Source of the DNA: Chryseolinea sp.
GTDB lineage: Bacteria; Bacteroidota; Bacteroidia; Cytophagales; Cyclobacteriaceae
Assembly: GCA_025923195.1 (NCBI GenBank)
Contig: JAICGJ010000021.1
Coordinates: forward strand, 1-43,695
DNA length: 43,695 bases
Reading direction: 5' to 3'
This document shows, piece after piece, positions 16,940 to 43,695 of the stretch (within the stretch, counting starts at the first letter, position 1; the number at the start of each line of letters is the position of its first letter). The notes under the pieces are model-generated. The model was not told the DNA's origin, ran no database searches, and saw nothing but the letters and a program-made list of their open reading frames with translations. A program made the translations under genes and the position numbers.

Positions 16940-17956
16940 ATGAAAATCCAGGACATACTTAAAGAGAGAATTCTTGTGATTGATGGTGCTATGGGCACTA
17001 TGATTCAACGCCACAACCTTACAGAGGAAGACTTTCGGGGAGAACGATTTAAGAATCATCGGTATCCCCTTAAGGGAAATAATGACATCCTTTCTATCAC
17101 GCGCCCCGATATTATCAAGGAAATACACGCACTTTACTTCGAGGCTGGGGCAGATATCATCGAAACTAATACTTTCAGCGCTACTACTATTGCTCAGGCT
17201 GATTATCATCTCGAAGATGCTGTCTATGACATAAACTTTGTGTCAGCAAGAATTGCCAGAGAAGTAGCCGACGAATTTACAAAGAAGGAGCCGCACAAAC
17301 CCAGGTTTGTTGCTGGCGCTATGGGTCCGACAAATAAAACGGCATCCCTATCCCCGGATGTCAACAGCCCTGGATTTCGCGCAATCACATTCGATCAACT
17401 CAAAGTGGCTTTCAAACAACAAGCCCAAGGGTTGGTTGACGGGGGTGTCGACCTGCTGTTGCTCGAGACCATTATCGACACATTAAATGCTAAAGCGGCA
17501 TTATTTGCGATCCAGGAGTTGTTTGATGAACGTGGAATGGAAATACCCGTTATGGTGTCGGGTACCATTACTGACGCCAGCGGCCGGACCTTGTCTGGAC
17601 AGACGACAGAAGCATTTCTGGTCTCCGTTTCGCATGTACCATTATTAAGTATTGGTTTGAACTGTGCACTGGGCGCTTCGTTGCTTCGACCATATTTACG
17701 CGTGCTTAGTGAGAAGGCTCCGTTCTTCGTAAGCGCGTACCCTAATGCTGGTTTACCTAATGAATTCGGTCAGTACGATGAGACACCCGAACAAATGGGA
17801 GCACAGATAGAAGAGTTCTTAAAGGAAGGTCTTGTCAACATAGTTGGAGGTTGCTGTGGTACTACGCCTGAACATATTAAAGTAATTGCCGAATTGGCGG
17901 CGAAGTATAAGCCGAGAAAAGTCCACAGTCCATGGTCCATGGTCAATAGCATGTGA
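16940..17956 (+). CDS. metH: Methionine synthase, homocysteine-binding subunit (split MetH N-terminal part)
   Basis: 338 residues, equal to only the first domain of classical MetH. It is a homocysteine S-methyltransferase barrel: the start [18 protein letters not shown] is typical, and the zinc-binding cysteines are Cys242 (GLNCALGA) and Cys305-Cys306 ([10 protein letters not shown]). This subunit binds and activates homocysteine, while the folate, cobalamin and reactivation domains are encoded by the gene at 18371. This is a clean domain-boundary split, not a frameshift, because each part has its own start and stop. The last 11 or so codons (from about residue 328, [10 protein letters not shown]) are read from the left repeat array of the inserted element. 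Translation begins just after the hairpin of the SAM riboswitch. Confidence 0.92.
17920..17949 (+). repeat. Left 7-mer array of element 1
   Basis: Four consecutive 7-base units of consensus GTCCAYR, starting at 17921, plus one flanking base on each side. It overlaps the last codons of metH-N. It is the inverted partner of 18329-18358. Confidence 0.85.
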
Positions 17957-17963
17957 GCGAATT

Positions 17964-18317
17964 ATGGCGTTTAAGTTTGAAAGGTTGAAAGTATGGGAGA
18001 AAGCCGTGGACTTGTCAAAAGAAATTTCTGATTTGGTTAAAACCTTTCCCAAGGATGAGTTATATGTTTTATCTAGCCAGATTAAACGCGCTTCGGATTC
18101 GATATCTCTAAACATCGCGGAGGGATCTACCGGTCAGTCCAATTTGGAATTTAAGAAATTTTTAGGGTATGCTCTTCGATCCGCCATCGAAGTGGTCGGA
18201 TGCCTGTATCTGGCGAAGAAACGAAATCTTGTCAGCCAAAATGCTTTCGACTTTTTCTATATCAAACTTACAGACCTGATAAGGGGGATTCAGGCATTGA
18301 GGAACTCTATAAAATAA
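17964..18317 (+). CDS. Four-helix-bundle protein (23S rRNA intervening-protein family), copy 1
   Basis: 117 residues. The frame is open upstream to 17886, but that part lies in metH-N and in the repeat array. The ATG at 17964 gives the normal family start [17 protein letters not shown]. The conserved core is visible: [16 protein letters not shown], then [20 protein letters not shown], then a helix with a [10 protein letters not shown] turn, and a fourth helix ending [10 protein letters not shown]. The family (S23/IVP, related in fold to the Avd proteins of diversity-generating retroelements) forms small basic four-helix bundles with a proposed nucleic-acid role; no enzymatic motif is known. 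The gene is intact although it lies inside the methionine operon. It is clearly different in sequence from copy 2. Confidence 0.88.
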
Positions 18318-18328
18318 AATACTATCTG

Positions 18329-18358
18329 CTATGGACCATTGACTATGGACCGTGGACT
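18329..18358 (-). repeat. Right 7-mer array of element 1
   Basis: Reverse complement of the left array at 26 of 30 positions: four 7-base units of GTCCAYR or GTCAAYG type on the minus strand. It ends 12 bases before the metH-C ATG, so it occupies most of that gene's leader. Confidence 0.85.
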
Positions 18359-18370
18359 CTTATAACAACT

Positions 18371-21055
18371 ATGAACCAAAACACACTTAATCTCAGTGGC
18401 CTTGAGGCCGTTGAGATCACTAATCAGTCAAACTTTGTTAACATCGGCGAAAGAACTAACGTCACTGGCTCTGCTAGATTTTTAAAGCTTATCAAAGATG
18501 ACAAATTCGACGAGGCTTTGGAGGTGGCGTTAGATCAGGTACGGGGAGGTGCCCAGGTAATTGATGTAAACATGGACGAGGGTATGATCGATTCCGAAGC
18601 AGCCATGGTAAGATTTCTTAACCTAATGGCTTCCGAACCTGAGATCGCGCGAGTTCCGGTTATGGTAGATTCTTCAAAATGGCATGTCATTGAAGCCGGG
18701 CTGAAGTGTTTGCAGGGAAAGGGCATCGTAAACTCCATCAGCATGAAGGGCGGCGTGGAAGAATTTGTCAGACAGGCTAAACTTGTCAAGCGGTATGGCG
18801 CAGCCGTTGTAGTGATGGCATTTGACGAAGACGGACAGGCCGATACCTATGAGCGTCGGATTGATATCTGCAAACGTGCTTATGATATACTCGTCAATGA
18901 TGTCAAATTCCCGCCGCAAGACATCATATTCGATCCGAACATCTTTCCGGTTGCAACGGGTATTGAAGAGCACCGGAATTATGCAGTGGACTTTTTCCGG
19001 GCGGCAAAATGGATCCGAGAAAACCTTCCTCATGCCCATGTGAGCGGTGGTGTGAGTAACGTGTCATTTAGTTTTCGAGGTAACCAGAAAGTGAGGGAAG
19101 CCATGCACACCGCCTTTCTGTATCATGCTATCAAAGCAGGAATGGATATGGGAATCGTTAATCCTGCCATGCTCGAAGTGTATGATGATATAGATAAGGA
19201 TCTATTGGAACGTGTAGAAGACGTATTGCTAAACAGACGGGAAGATGCAACGGAGCGGTTACTGGAATTTGCTGAAACGGTAAAAGGATCCGCAAAGAAA
19301 AAGGAAGTCGATGACGAATGGAGAAAAGGCTCTGTTGAGGAACGTCTGACACATGCCCTGGTAAAAGGTGTAATAGACTACATTGATGACGATACCGAAG
19401 AAGCCCGTCAAAAATATGGAAAGCCCTTGAATGTAATAGAGGGACCACTCATGGCCGGAATGAATGTTGTTGGTGATCTCTTTGGCGCAGGCAAAATGTT
19501 TTTACCCCAGGTGGTAAAAAGCGCTCGCGTGATGAAGAAATCAGTGGCTTACCTTACCCCATACCTCGAGGAAGAAAAAAGAAACAACGGGGGCGGGGAC
19601 AAACCCGCCGCAAAAATTCTGATGGCAACGGTCAAGGGAGATGTTCATGATATCGGCAAAAATATCGTGGGTGTTGTTCTGGCGTGCAATAACTATAATG
19701 TCGTTGACCTCGGCGTCATGGTGCCCTCCGAAAAAATAATCGAGGCAGCCAAACGCGAAAAGGTTGACATGATTGGTCTTAGTGGCTTAATCACGCCATC
19801 ACTGGATGAAATGGTACATATGGCGAAAGAAATGCAGCGCGAAAAAATGGTGATGCCCTTGTTGATCGGAGGCGCTACGACATCGCGAATCCATACCGCT
19901 GTTAAAATTGATCCCGTATACAGCGGTCCAGTTGTACATGTTCTTGATGCTTCGCGTAGCGTACCTGTCGCCAGCGAGTTCATCAACCCCGACACATTTG
20001 AGACAATCAAAGGGAGGTTCAAGAACGAGTACGCTAAACTTCGCGAAGACTACGAAAAACGAAAAGAGCAGAAGAACTATATCTCGTTGCGTGATGCACG
20101 CAACAATCAGGTAAAGATAGACTGGAAGACCACGCAGATCACAAGGCCAAAGTTTTTCGGAAGTAAACAATTTATAAACTATCCTTTGGAGGAAATCCGG
20201 AAGTTCATCGATTGGACTCCTTTTTTCCAAACATGGATGCTGGCTGGCCGGTACCCCGGCATATTCAATGATTCAGTGGTTGGTACGGAAGCTCGAAGGC
20301 TGTTTGACGATGCACAAAAGATGTTGGATCAGATCGTTCAAAGCAGAAGTCTGCAAGCCAATGGTGTCATAGGATTTTATCCAGCGGTACGAACCGAAAC
20401 GGATGATGTGAAGCTCTCCAGGAAAGAAGGCGAGGCCTCGTTCACAACTTTACACTTCCTCAGACAGCAAAACAAGAAAGCGCAGGGCCTTCCAAACTTC
20501 TGCCTTGCCGACTTCATTGCACCGGAAACTTCAGGCCGGCAGGACTACATTGGCATGTTCGCAGTAACAGCTGGCCTGGGTATCGAAAAGCTGTTGGCTA
20601 AGTATAAAGAGCTGCAAGATGATTATTCCGATATCATGGTCAAGGCTCTCGCCGACCGGTTAGCCGAAGCCTTTGCCGAGTGTCTGCATGCCAGGGTCCG
20701 CAGGGAATTTTGGGGATACGCTTCGGATGAAAAATTAAGCAATGACGAATTGATCGCAGAGAAATACAGCGGCATCCGTCCCGCGCCAGGGTATCCTGCA
20801 TGTCCGGACCATACAGAAAAAGGAATATTATTCGAAATACTCGATGCGGAGAAAGCAGGCATAAGACTAACCGAATCCTTTGCCATGTACCCTGCCTCCT
20901 CCGTTAGCGGTTTCTATTTTGCAAATAGCGACTCCAAATATTTTGGCCTTGGCAAGATTGAAAAAGACCAGGTACTAGAGTATGCGGGCCGGAAGGGGAT
21001 GAGCGTAGAAGATGTTGAGAGGTGGTTGTCGCCGAATTTGGCTTACGATGTTTAA
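18371..21055 (+). CDS. metH: Methionine synthase, folate/cobalamin/reactivation part (split MetH C-terminal part)
   Basis: 894 residues, corresponding to MetH without its homocysteine domain. Domains: pterin-binding barrel (about 20-285; [14 protein letters not shown] start and VMVDSSKW motif), cobalamin-binding cap and Rossmann domain (about 320-560; [10 protein letters not shown] with the cobalt-ligand histidine at residue 426), and the SAM-binding activation domain (about 590-894; [15 protein letters not shown] with Arg803, then [11 protein letters not shown]). The enzyme transfers methyl from methyl-THF to homocysteine via cobalamin, acting with the metH-N product. The frame is open upstream to 18200, but that part lies in the four-helix gene and repeats. 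The ATG at 18371 gives the expected N-terminus. Its stop at 21053-21055 abuts the 8-mer array of element 2. Confidence 0.94.
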
Positions 21056-21056
21056 A

Positions 21057-21088
21057 GTGTTTGAGTGTTTAAGTGTTTATGTGTTTGA
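21057..21088 (+). repeat. Left 8-mer array of element 2
   Basis: Four tandem 8-base units of consensus GTGTTTRA (one ends AT). It begins one base after the metH-C stop codon. Confidence 0.85.
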
Positions 21089-21111
21089 GTTAGCTATCAA
21101 TAAAAGTATGT

Positions 21112-21501
21112 ATGGGCAAGATAAAAAAGTTTGAGGAATTGCGTTGCTGGCAGGAGGCGCGTAATCTTGTCAAGGAAATTTACTTAATATCAGAGTTTGG
21201 AAAGTTATCTCGAGATTTTGATACTAAGAGCCAGTTGAAAAGGGCGGCATTGTCCACAATGAATAATATCGCAGAGGGCTTTGGGAAGTTTAGTAGCAAG
21301 GAATTCATCCGTTACCTGGATACTGCCAACAATTCAGCATCCGAAGTAAAAAGTATCCTATATGTGCTTTCCGACTTGGAATATATTGATACAGAAAAAG
21401 TTAGGGAGATCCAACTCAAAGCGGACGAGGTTAAAGCACTTTGCCTGGCGCTAATTCGATACTTGAATAAACGAGACACACCTAAACACTTAGACACATA
21501 A
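21112..21501 (+). CDS. Four-helix-bundle protein (23S rRNA intervening-protein family), copy 2
   Basis: 129 residues, starting at the ATG at 21112; a nearer upstream ATG at 21108 is out of frame. The family pattern is clear: FEELRCWQEARNLVKEIY, then DTKSQLKRAALSTMNNIAEGFGKFSSKEFIRYL, then ASEVKSILYVLSDLEYID and a last helix ending LIRYLNK. The final residues RDTPKHLDT and the stop are read from the right 8-mer array, so the repeat supplies the protein's C-terminus. The protein is a small basic four-helix bundle with no catalytic motif. The gene is intact and lies in the same direction as the methionine genes, 20 bases before metF. Confidence 0.9.
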   Translation: MGKIKKFEELRCWQEARNLVKEIYLISEFGKLSRDFDTKSQLKRAALSTMNNIAEGFGKFSSKEFIRYLDTANNSASEVKSILYVLSDLEYIDTEKVREIQLKADEVKALCLALIRYLNKRDTPKHLDT

Positions 21502-21513
21502 ATACCTACACAC
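21474..21513 (-). repeat. Right 8-mer array of element 2
   Basis: On the minus strand it reads as five 8-base units related to GTGTTTAG, with scattered mismatches. It contains the stop codon of the four-helix gene and ends 7 bases before metF, so it occupies the metF leader. Confidence 0.75.
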
Positions 21514-21520
21514 AACGAAC

Positions 21521-22477
21521 ATGAAAGTCTGTGAACACTTAAAAAACGCAAACGGGAAGACTTTATTTACCATTGAAATTCTCCCGCCGCTGAAGGGCGA
21601 AAATATAAAGATGTTGTTTGATAACATTGATCCATTAATGGAATTCAAACCTCCCTTTATTGATGTTACCTATCATCGCGAGGAATATGTTTATAAAAAA
21701 ATGCCCAGCGGACTTCTTGAGAAAAGAACGACGCGGAAACGTCCTGGTACCGTTGGAATATGTGCAGCAATTCAAAACCGGTATAAAGTAGACACGGTAC
21801 CCCACATTATTTGCGGTGGGTTTACACGTGAGGAAACTGAAAATGCCCTTATTGACCTTCACTTTTTAGGCATCGATAACATCCTTGTCTTGCAGGGTGA
21901 TGCGATTAAAACCGAATCCCGCTTTGTACCTGAGCCGGATGGATATCGATATGCATCAGAATTGCTTGAACAGGTATGCAAGATGAATCGAGGTATTTAT
22001 CTAGACGATGAGTTACAGAATCCTTCGCCCACAAACTTTTGTATAGGGGTTGCGGGATATCCTGAAAAGCATTTTTCAGCCCCGAATTTGAAGACTGACT
22101 TGAAATATTTGAAGTTAAAAGTTGACCTCGGCGCAGAATATATTGTAACGCAAATGTTTTTCGACAATCAAAAGTATTTTGCATTTGTAGAGGAATGCAG
22201 GAAGGTGGGCATAAATGTTCCTATAATTCCGGGGATCAAGCCTTTGACTGGTAAAGGCCAGGTTAACATCCTTCCCAAAGCATTTCATATTGATATTCCC
22301 GAGGAATTATCCGAGGCCGTTGAAAAAAGCAAGGATAACGCGGCCGTCAGGGAAGTAGGAATAGAATGGTGTGTCAAGCAGTCAAAAGAACTCATAGAGC
22401 ATAATGTGCCTACCTTGCATTTTTATAGCATGGGTAAGTCAGACCCCATTTACCGCATAGCAAGAGAACTATTTTAG
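21521..22477 (+). CDS. metF: 5,10-methylenetetrahydrofolate reductase
   Basis: 318 residues, a normal length for MetF. It reduces methylene-THF to methyl-THF with FAD and NAD(P)H, supplying the methyl donor for the methionine synthase encoded upstream. Visible family motifs are FTIEILPPLKGENI with the catalytic glutamate near residue 18, FIDVTYHREE, PHIICGGFTREET, NILVLQGDA (FAD-binding loop), CIGVAGYPEKH, and GAEYIVTQMFFDNQKYF. The order metH-N, metH-C, metF behind a SAM riboswitch is a coherent methionine-regeneration operon. The start codon lies 7 bases after the right repeat of element 2, so its ribosome-binding region is repeat-derived. Confidence 0.94.
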   Translation: MKVCEHLKNANGKTLFTIEILPPLKGENIKMLFDNIDPLMEFKPPFIDVTYHREEYVYKKMPSGLLEKRTTRKRPGTVGICAAIQNRYKVDTVPHIICGGFTREETENALIDLHFLGIDNILVLQGDAIKTESRFVPEPDGYRYASELLEQVCKMNRGIYLDDELQNPSPTNFCIGVAGYPEKHFSAPNLKTDLKYLKLKVDLGAEYIVTQMFFDNQKYFAFVEECRKVGINVPIIPGIKPLTGKGQVNILPKAFHIDIPEELSEAVEKSKDNAAVREVGIEWCVKQSKELIEHNVPTLHFYSMGKSDPIYRIARELF

Positions 22478-43159: not shown

Positions 43160-43378
43160 ATAAATGTTAATGCGGCGCATGCAGTATCCTGGTGCAAGTG
43201 GCTGTCCTTCAAAGTTACCACCAACCAAAACATGACCTTCTTATTGGGATACTCTGCGGTAAAATCCTGTTTCACGCGATGGGCGCGAAGGAGTAACGCA
43301 AAGAGCACAAACGTTCTTAAAATTAGCATGACGATTTTAAATTAGAGATCGAAAGCACACTGCCAACTCAGAAGTTCG

Positions 43379-43407
43379 CACACCTAAACACTTAAACACC
43401 CACACTC
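43379..43407 (-). repeat. Solitary 8-mer array related to element 2
   Basis: On the minus strand it contains the units GTGTTTAA and GTGTTTAG flanked by degenerate ones, the same unit family and the same orientation as the right array of element 2. No four-helix gene lies beside it. Confidence 0.75.
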
Positions 43408-43466
43408 AATGTCGTTTAGTACGCAATACATTTTAAAAATTGCATTTTAATTTGGAAGCATTTTTT

Positions 43467-43573
43467 ACCGCAGAGAAAAAAATACAGAGATAAATGCCCA
43501 GAGGGCCGCAGAGAGAGAGAGAGAGAGAAATTAATAAAGACTCTGCGTATTTCTCGGCGTAATTTTCTCGGGT
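43467..43573. repeat. Gene-less inverted pair of CGCAGAG-type arrays
   Basis: The left arm (43467-43513; starts ACCGCAGAGAAA) and right arm (43540-43573; ACTCTGCGTATTTCTC on the plus strand) are imperfect inverted copies built of short units like CGCAGAGAAATA. A (GA)9 microsatellite at 43511-43528 lies between them, with no reading frame. Confidence 0.6.
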
Positions 43574-43610
43574 ATACTCTCTTATATAACTATATAACTA
43601 CTCTACATTG

Positions 43611-43695
43611 AGCCGCTGAGAGCCATTCAATTCTGCTGCAAGTGACTCATTCAAAGCGCAAGACTTCATTCCGTGCCGGCGCGATGGCCCGAGCC
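43611..43695 (+). repeat. Dispersed direct repeat, copy B (cut by window end)
   Basis: Second copy of the element at 42989-43074, sharing the 38-base identical core (43646-43683). It runs into the end of the window, so its full length and any following hairpin cannot be seen. Confidence 0.85.

Follow-up and report, generated by a model that had tools for sequence, protein, structure and literature searches.

Four-helix-bundle genes of the S23 family framed by inverted tandem arrays with words of their own: a candidate mobile element in Chryseolinea and other bacteria

In REPIN/RAYT systems a protein gene is framed by its own repeats, gene-less inverted copies of these repeats are found, each lineage has its own repeat and the placement is intergenic. 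RAYT is a REP-associated tyrosine (HUH) transposase, and the REP unit is a short palindrome. The first structure of the S23 family of small proteins dates from 2006. The family has been described as being without known function, and the X. campestris protein S23p has been reported as a homopentamer (PMC4990558). In Coxiella the 23S rRNA intervening sequence that carries an S23 gene is excised by RNase III, and two or three tandem GACAGAT heptamers precede the S23 start; in the accessible part of that paper they figure as a detail that varies among strains and are not connected with arrays across the genome (PMC4990558). Genes named 23S_rRNA_IVP have also been reported beside cas genes (PMC3936711; PMC10910872).

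Heptameric repeats are common in some bacteria. Arrays of GGGAATC, all intergenic, number 186 and 183 in two Xanthomonas genomes and form convergent pairs in 70 and 75 cases, and a heptamer GGGGA(C/T)T has been reported from Nostoc; the study is concerned with G-quadruplexes and leaves the role of the heptamer open (Rehm et al. 2015, PMC4692102). Likewise intergenic are the TAACTGA direct repeats known from Beggiatoaceae, cyanobacteria and Bacteroidetes, some of them long and mixed, for which a role in rearrangement has been suggested (PMC4679880). Neither 'S23' nor 'four helix' appears in the accessible text of PMC4692102, and 'four helix', 'S23' and 'IVP' are likewise absent from that of PMC4679880. 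Among open-licence PMC texts no link of S23 genes with genome-wide heptamer arrays was found, the nearest being the heptamers before the S23 start in the Coxiella paper (PMC4990558).

In this work we have analyzed two S23 genes and their flanking repeats in a stretch of 43,695 nucleotides from Chryseolinea sp. (the window). The features concerned are the following, the names of the two host genes being those of an earlier note on this DNA.

17920..17950, + strand: left array of element 1, 7-bp unit, GGTCCAT-like
17964..18317, + strand: S23 gene of element 1, same class as element 2 with another unit
18329..18359, - strand: right array of element 1
18371..21055, + strand: host gene upstream of element 2, C-terminal part of metH (metH-C)
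21049..21090, + strand: left array of element 2, 8-bp unit GTGTTTRR read inward (TRF, period 8)
21112..21501, + strand: S23 / 23S_rRNA_IVP four-helix-bundle gene of element 2, 129 amino acids (PF05635, TIGR02436)
21476..21514, - strand: right array of element 2, GTGTTTRR unit on the opposite strand, more degenerate (TRF)
21521..22477, + strand: host gene downstream of element 2, metF
43380..43405, - strand: gene-less array of the GTGTTTRR unit

Element 2 (21049-21514) lies between metH-C, which ends at 21055 and whose stop codon (21053-21055) abuts the left array, and metF, which starts at 21521; being flanked by two protein genes, it is not in a 23S rRNA gene. It has terminal inverted repeats around the S23 ORF, as the 23S rRNA intervening sequence does. 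The left array consists of the units GTGTTTGA GTGTTTAA GTGTTTAT GTGTTTGA (21057-21088), and the right array, weaker than the left, reads GTGTGTAG GTATTTAT GTGTCTAA GTGTTTAG GTGTGTCT on the other strand, overlapping the last codons at the 3' end of the gene. The left arm and the reverse-complemented right arm match with a score of 15.5; among 3000 windows drawn at random from this genome, six reached a score of 15. The 8-bp unit is not confined to the surroundings of the gene: it recurs at 43380-43405 and in many further parts of the genome. No inverted partner of that distant array was seen by eye in 43200-43695, up to the contig end, close to which (43583-43600) stand two copies of TATATAAC, a sequence that has been attributed to none of the S23 words.

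The product of element 2 matches the profiles PF05635 (105.8 bits, cut-off 33.8) and TIGR02436 (97.1 bits, cut-off 24). PF05635 is its sole Pfam match and covers residues 8-110 of 129, which leaves no room for another domain; no known transposase motif or recognised catalytic domain was found by the Pfam search. The AlphaFold model is a confident four-helix bundle (pLDDT 95.3). The gene framed by inverted 8-base arrays, as it had been described in the earlier note, is indeed a PF05635 gene between GTGTTTRR arrays. In the PDB the model is matched best by 2gsc (Z 18.6, rmsd 1.3 over 114 residues), followed by 2rld, both entries having five chains, and then by Avd chains, including that of the ribonucleoprotein of diversity-generating retroelements (DGR), with Z of 13.4-14.0, rmsd of 1.6-1.9 and 12-13% sequence identity; unrelated plant helical bundles reach Z 13.1.

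An alignment of 43 S23 sequences shows full conservation of Q41, E55 and E78 and near-full conservation of S48, N52, I53, G56 and S75. Values of dN/dS were 0.061/0.524, 0.008/0.278 and 0.004/0.032 in three S23 pairs, the last with few changes, and dN was 0.163 in the pair L006/L023, for which dS was not computable; judged by such substitutions, the S23 gene is conserved as a protein. The own-genome S23 proteins that were listed or aligned against that of element 2 are 20-38% identical to it, and the gene-bearing copies do not look young. A search of 50,697 phage records (E 1e-5) gave no match to the element 2 protein.

The two elements of the window had been considered different in unit length, unit sequence and protein. 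The units do differ (8-bp GTGTTTRR and the 7-bp GGTCCAT-like unit); the proteins are not unrelated, since both belong to PF05635 (E 1.7e-30 and 2.4e-30), with 31% identity to each other. That identity, together with the different unit, rules out element 2 as a local duplication of element 1, and most close relatives of element 2 are found at other places, in agreement with what had been proposed. In the clade of element 1, 10 of the 27 relatives at 50% identity or more carry its motif on both sides, and the unit is kept less strictly than in the clade of element 2. S23 genes of the element 1 clade lie next to metH-C in many families of the class, and 11 loci share the site before metH-C (L106, L107, L109, L114, L118, L120, L121, L122, L124, L127 and L130), which indicates either that the site is old, with vertical persistence, or that it is a hot spot.

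The generality of such arrays was approached with 142 S23 genes from the own genome and 18 relatives (part of the matches of the latter), the class (top matches of elements 1 and 2 in 395 genomes plus 20 further picks) and plasmids (six genes), a sample that is not random and is enriched for relatives of the two window proteins. Two of 144 genes had been dropped for a flank shorter than 100 nt, and L013 as a duplicate of L012. With the threshold set at score 14, inverted arrays were found in 107/142 genes, compared with 61/2815 mismatched left/right pairs (2.2%) and 10/3000 random windows; the direct orientation reached the threshold in 15/142. The remaining 35/142 have no array pair at the threshold used, and the array-bearing class is thus not universal among S23 genes. 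The best period in the 107 array-bearing loci was 7 in 78 and 8 in 26, arm self-match was at least 0.6 in 96, and on the inward-reading strand G exceeded C in 90, was below it in 14 and equalled it in three.

The own genome gave 13 matches to PF05635, 11 of them full genes, and nine of these are framed by inverted arrays of 7-8 bp units, the word being particular to each gene; no inverted arrays were found around the other two, L010 and L011. A twelfth S23 gene, L012 (G000:C350:237-550), is broken into two frames and still surrounded by GTGAAAA arrays, which are also present elsewhere in this genome. An S23 gene scoring 61-64 bits is present in all six genomes of the genus (L011 at G000:C194:3887-4198, L027, L028, L041, G003:C4 and G004:C19); the four copies examined have inverted scores of only 8.0 to 13.5, and L011 adjoins sequences that by eye resemble tRNA genes. 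This gene is perhaps a domesticated copy without arrays.

A scan of many phyla with a Xanthomonas protein as query, one genome per species, kept the best 80 loci, which by their record titles span Proteobacteria, Nitrospirota, Planctomycetota, Chloroflexota, Acidobacteriota, Clostridia, Patescibacteria and others. After four loci were dropped for a short flank, inverted arrays were present in 60/76 and the direct orientation reached the threshold in 20/76. No 23S rRNA insertion was found at the gathering threshold in 16 of the 80 loci, in which one tRNA was seen. The general element class suggested in the earlier note is therefore supported, and the opposite outcome, that such genes usually lack inverted arrays, is refuted by the 107/142 and 60/76. 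Gene-less arrays, empty sites, the GGGAATC heptamer link and the reach outside Bacteroidota go beyond that note.

The word follows the protein. After removal of pairs sharing a neighbourhood (285 of 5671), units within one edit of each other were found in 0.9% of the pairs below 30% protein identity, 1.6% at 30-40%, 2.4% at 40-50%, 13.9% at 50-55% and 30-31% at 55-70%. The mean unit distance was 2.45 for pairs with at least 50% identity, and the minimum in 1000 permutations was 3.15. In the element 2 clade two or more copies of GTG[TC]T stand on each side of the gene in every one of the 11 relatives whose identity is 50% or higher, compared with 0/65 at 35-50% identity and 0/65 below; the motif was chosen after the clade had been seen, and identity was counted over 90% of the matched length. 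When 105 proteins were placed on a tree, the 10 rows labelled GTGTT made up one side of a branch with support 100/98; the label requires one change, a number as low as this being reached in 0/500 shuffles. Three of the 12 GTGTT clade members share the metH/metF site and two share another, while the other seven have no shared neighbour within a flank of about 1.4 kb, which gives nine neighbourhoods for 12 members. A weaker measure of co-evolution, sharing of arm score 13 with the closest protein neighbour of at least 45% identity, was positive in 22/99 loci, and the unit-based and clade-based measures are sharper. The word is thus specific to the protein clade, and the proposal that each protein lineage carries its own unit is supported: unit distance falls with protein identity, the GTGTT label occupies one well supported branch, and independence of unit type from clade is refuted by permutations, 0/1000 of which reach the observed value.

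Arrays without a gene were looked for in 799 kb of the own genome without a detected S23 gene. At threshold 14 period 7 gave 27 arrays, and any other period tested from 5 to 13 gave 0 to 2. At threshold 13 there were 35 gene-less arrays of period 7 or 8, and 33 of them have a match among the arms of ten S23 loci from that genome, compared with 9.4 on average and 20 at most for random sets of ten foreign loci (2000 draws). In 360 kb of G006 10/15 gene-less arrays match a resident S23 locus (random mean 1.9, maximum 9). Relics without a gene exist as well, since G001, whose only S23 gene is array-less, has five period-7 arrays in 400 kb.

The same association is seen with single words. With one mismatch allowed, G000 and G004, both with the gene, have 125 and 69 two-copy matches to GTGTTTRD, and G001, G003 and G005, without it, have 3, 5 and 4 (G002 was left out); the word read backward as a control gives 8 in G000 and 7 in each of G001, G003, G004 and G005. 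GTTATYC, the word of L004, has 288 matches vs 0 in the control. Among the matches listed for GTGTTTRD and GTTATYC, neighbours on opposite strands less than 500 bp apart were inward in 17 cases, two of which hold an S23 gene, and outward in none; four neighbouring pairs were on the same strand. Of the 395 class genomes, 10 have a detected gene of the clade, and nine of them contain three-copy GTGTT arrays (398 matches); the other 385, in which such a gene was not detected, include 20 with these arrays (63 matches; Fisher p 1.6e-10). In G227 all such matches are the flanks of the gene itself, as is partly so in other gene-bearing genomes, and with G227 counted as a miss p is 9e-9. No three-copy GTGTT array was found in G032, which has a gene of the clade, and the genus of G227 supplies six of the 20 exceptions. 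Gene-less arrays bearing the word of a resident gene are thus dispersed in the same genome.

Gene-less pairs have some features of their own. Eleven GTGTTTRD array sites form a local cluster within 14 kb (L331, G000:C78:11712-25471). The motif GTTYCTGS stands just inside the array in five of nine gene-less GTGTT pairs (L331, L332, L333, L335) and is absent from element 2, and gene-less GTTATCC pairs in L164 and L336 have, by eye, a common inner inverted repeat; pairs with either feature may be distinct non-autonomous families.

Comparison of related genomes and plasmids revealed filled and empty sites. Element 2 is present with the same arrays in G004, of the same genus; it is absent from G005, where 75 bp separate the two host genes, and from G001-G003, where 61-78 bp do. 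G010, of another genus, has decayed GTGTTTAAG arrays at the metH-C/metF site and no gene there. In a Nostoc plasmid operon an S23 gene with AGGAGTC arrays occupies one junction in three plasmids, and an S23 gene with GGGAAAA arrays the next junction in a fourth; the two serve as mutual empty sites (89-99% identity in the two compared). A third S23 site, in Calothrix plasmids, is filled in two and empty in three others examined. The inserted plasmid blocks start and end with the arrays, at a stop/start junction and with a few bases changed, although at one Nostoc junction about 40 bp past the right array are also inserted. S23 gene and arrays are therefore present or absent as one block, and gene-less AGGAGTC pairs too are present in some plasmids of the set and absent from others. 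No target-site duplication could be named at the plasmid insertions, the candidate TTCTA also reading as part of a unit. The insertion at stop/start junctions is explained by selection against gene damage as well as it would be by a preference of the element.

From all this it is very probable that the S23 gene and its arrays make one linked element, a dispersing unit with a protein-specific word. That element 2 is a gene-bearing copy of a small mobile element whose ends are the inward tandem arrays and whose mechanism is driven by S23 is somewhat less assured, and we consider it rather likely. Our best reading, by analogy, is that each S23 protein recognises a word of its own and disperses DNA bounded by arrays of it, in the way RAYT would do for REPINs, without being a known transposase; the analogy does not make the S23 element a member of REPIN/RAYT. 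A driving role of S23 is suggested by this analogy and by the match of gene-less arrays with resident genes, in trans. The protein would bind several consecutive words of its own array, bring two arrays together and promote copying or insertion of the DNA between them in cis and in trans, the preferred route being through a single-stranded DNA hairpin made at replication forks. As a guess, the tandem arrangement of the word would be accounted for if an S23 pentamer were able to hold several words together. The protein would be expressed by read-through from the host operon, as suggested by the direction of the genes: of the 97 array-bearing S23 genes that have a neighbouring ORF of 110 codons or more on both sides, 78 lie between two ORFs of their own direction, 7 between two opposite ORFs and 12 between mixed ones.

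The same bias of direction fits a transcript-borne element, and it is conceivable, if unlikely, that RNA is the acting form: the arrays would fold into a long stem in the host transcript, much as 23S rRNA intervening sequences do, RNase III would cut it, S23 would bind the stem and spread would go through a reverse transcriptase. Some 23S rRNA intervening sequences encode S23, and the top fold matches outside the family are the Avd chains (Z 13.4-14.0, with plant bundles at 13.1); Avd works with the DGR enzyme. The excision of the Coxiella element by RNase III (PMC4990558) points the same way. If a stem of sense RNA were selected, the differences between left and right arms should favour G-U pairs, and no asymmetry was seen in 107 arm pairs (110 wobble-compatible vs 112 incompatible transitions, p 0.95). 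Moreover, the own genome has gene-less pairs whose two neighbouring ORFs point in opposite directions, and an element of about 0.45 kb is too short to encode a reverse transcriptase.

Less probable still is that S23 is a regulator whose operators are the arrays, those at its own ends serving autoregulation and the gene-less ones forming a regulon spread by recombination or slippage. Word-protein matching would be expected of a regulator and its sites, the arrays are close to ORFs, and a similar view has been published for the TAACTGA heptamers (PMC4679880). Such a regulator leaves unexplained, however, the inward pairs that frame DNA (17 inward and none outward among the matches listed), the gene coming and going with both arrays as a block, and the presence or absence of gene-less copies among closely related plasmids. 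That the arrays are passive products of slippage beside which S23 genes stand by chance is very improbable, for although heptameric repeats are common in some bacteria (PMC4692102) and copy number varies between arrays, slippage produces neither locus-specific words on both sides nor their match with resident genes, the period is specific (27 arrays of period 7 vs 0 to 2 of the others from 5 to 13 in 799 kb), and the controls with mismatched pairs and resident sets speak against it.

Returning to S23 as a protein that would spread array-bounded DNA, there is a somewhat less than even chance that it represents an unrecognised class of DNA-spreading factor, each lineage of which would read a tandem 7-8 bp word of its own and disperse whatever DNA stands between two inward arrays, with catalysis either by S23 itself, for which Q41, E55 and E78 would be the candidates, or by host replication. 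It would then be the centre of a mobile element without a known transposase, would account for the heptamer arrays of Xanthomonas and perhaps those of Nostoc, and would make the S23-bearing 23S rRNA intervening sequences cases that had landed in rRNA, thus offering a possible source for them. The finding suggests a function and a binding partner for the large S23 family and a cause for intergenic heptamer arrays in Xanthomonas and perhaps cyanobacteria. Since the matching of protein and word can be read from many natural pairs, a recognition code could be worked out directly.

Among the known systems the GGGAATC arrays of Xanthomonas resemble the S23-linked arrays in being intergenic, 7 bp in unit and paired convergently. 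If they belong to S23 systems, XCC0516, the protein of PDB 2gsc, should sit between GGGAATC arrays, a prediction formed ahead of the locus search and recorded only afterwards. GGGAATC arrays frame S23 genes in X. arboricola, X. dyei and X. vasicola, all three Xanthomonas species returned; S23 genes of Luteimonas have GGGAATC and those of Dokdonella GGGATTC arrays, and 20-kb stretches of L253, L254 and L255 hold gene-less inward pairs of GGGAATC/GGGATTC words. No S23 gene with exactly the Nostoc word GGGGA(C/T)T was found among the loci examined. The TAACTGA repeats are intergenic heptamer arrays too (PMC4679880) and may belong to the same class.

With the S23-bearing 23S rRNA intervening sequence element 2 shares the protein family and the terminal inverted repeats; it lies between protein genes, whereas the intervening sequence of Coxiella lies in 23S rRNA. 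The 23S_rRNA_IVP genes of cas loci belong to the same family, and 7-8 bp arrays are not mentioned in the accessible text of the papers concerned (PMC3936711; PMC10910872). Avd of diversity-generating retroelements (PDB 4dwl, 8ub7) has the four-helix-bundle fold of S23, with a Z only slightly above that of unrelated bundles (13.1) but a lower rmsd; unlike Avd in its retroelement, S23 is alone in the repeated unit. The gene-less pairs differ from a MITE of a DDE transposon, because the partner with the same ends encodes S23 and no known transposase. The likeness to REPIN/RAYT extends to a small gene that stands between its own repeats, numerous inverted copies without the gene, a repeat particular to each protein lineage and intergenic placement, and gene-less copies go with a resident recogniser gene here as well, as an association. 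In contrast to RAYT, S23 is not a tyrosine (HUH) transposase, PF05635 being its only Pfam family; its repeat is a tandem word of 7-8 bp (period 7 or 8 in 104/107 loci) and not a short palindrome like REP; and, unlike REPIN/RAYT, several S23 systems with different words reside in one genome.
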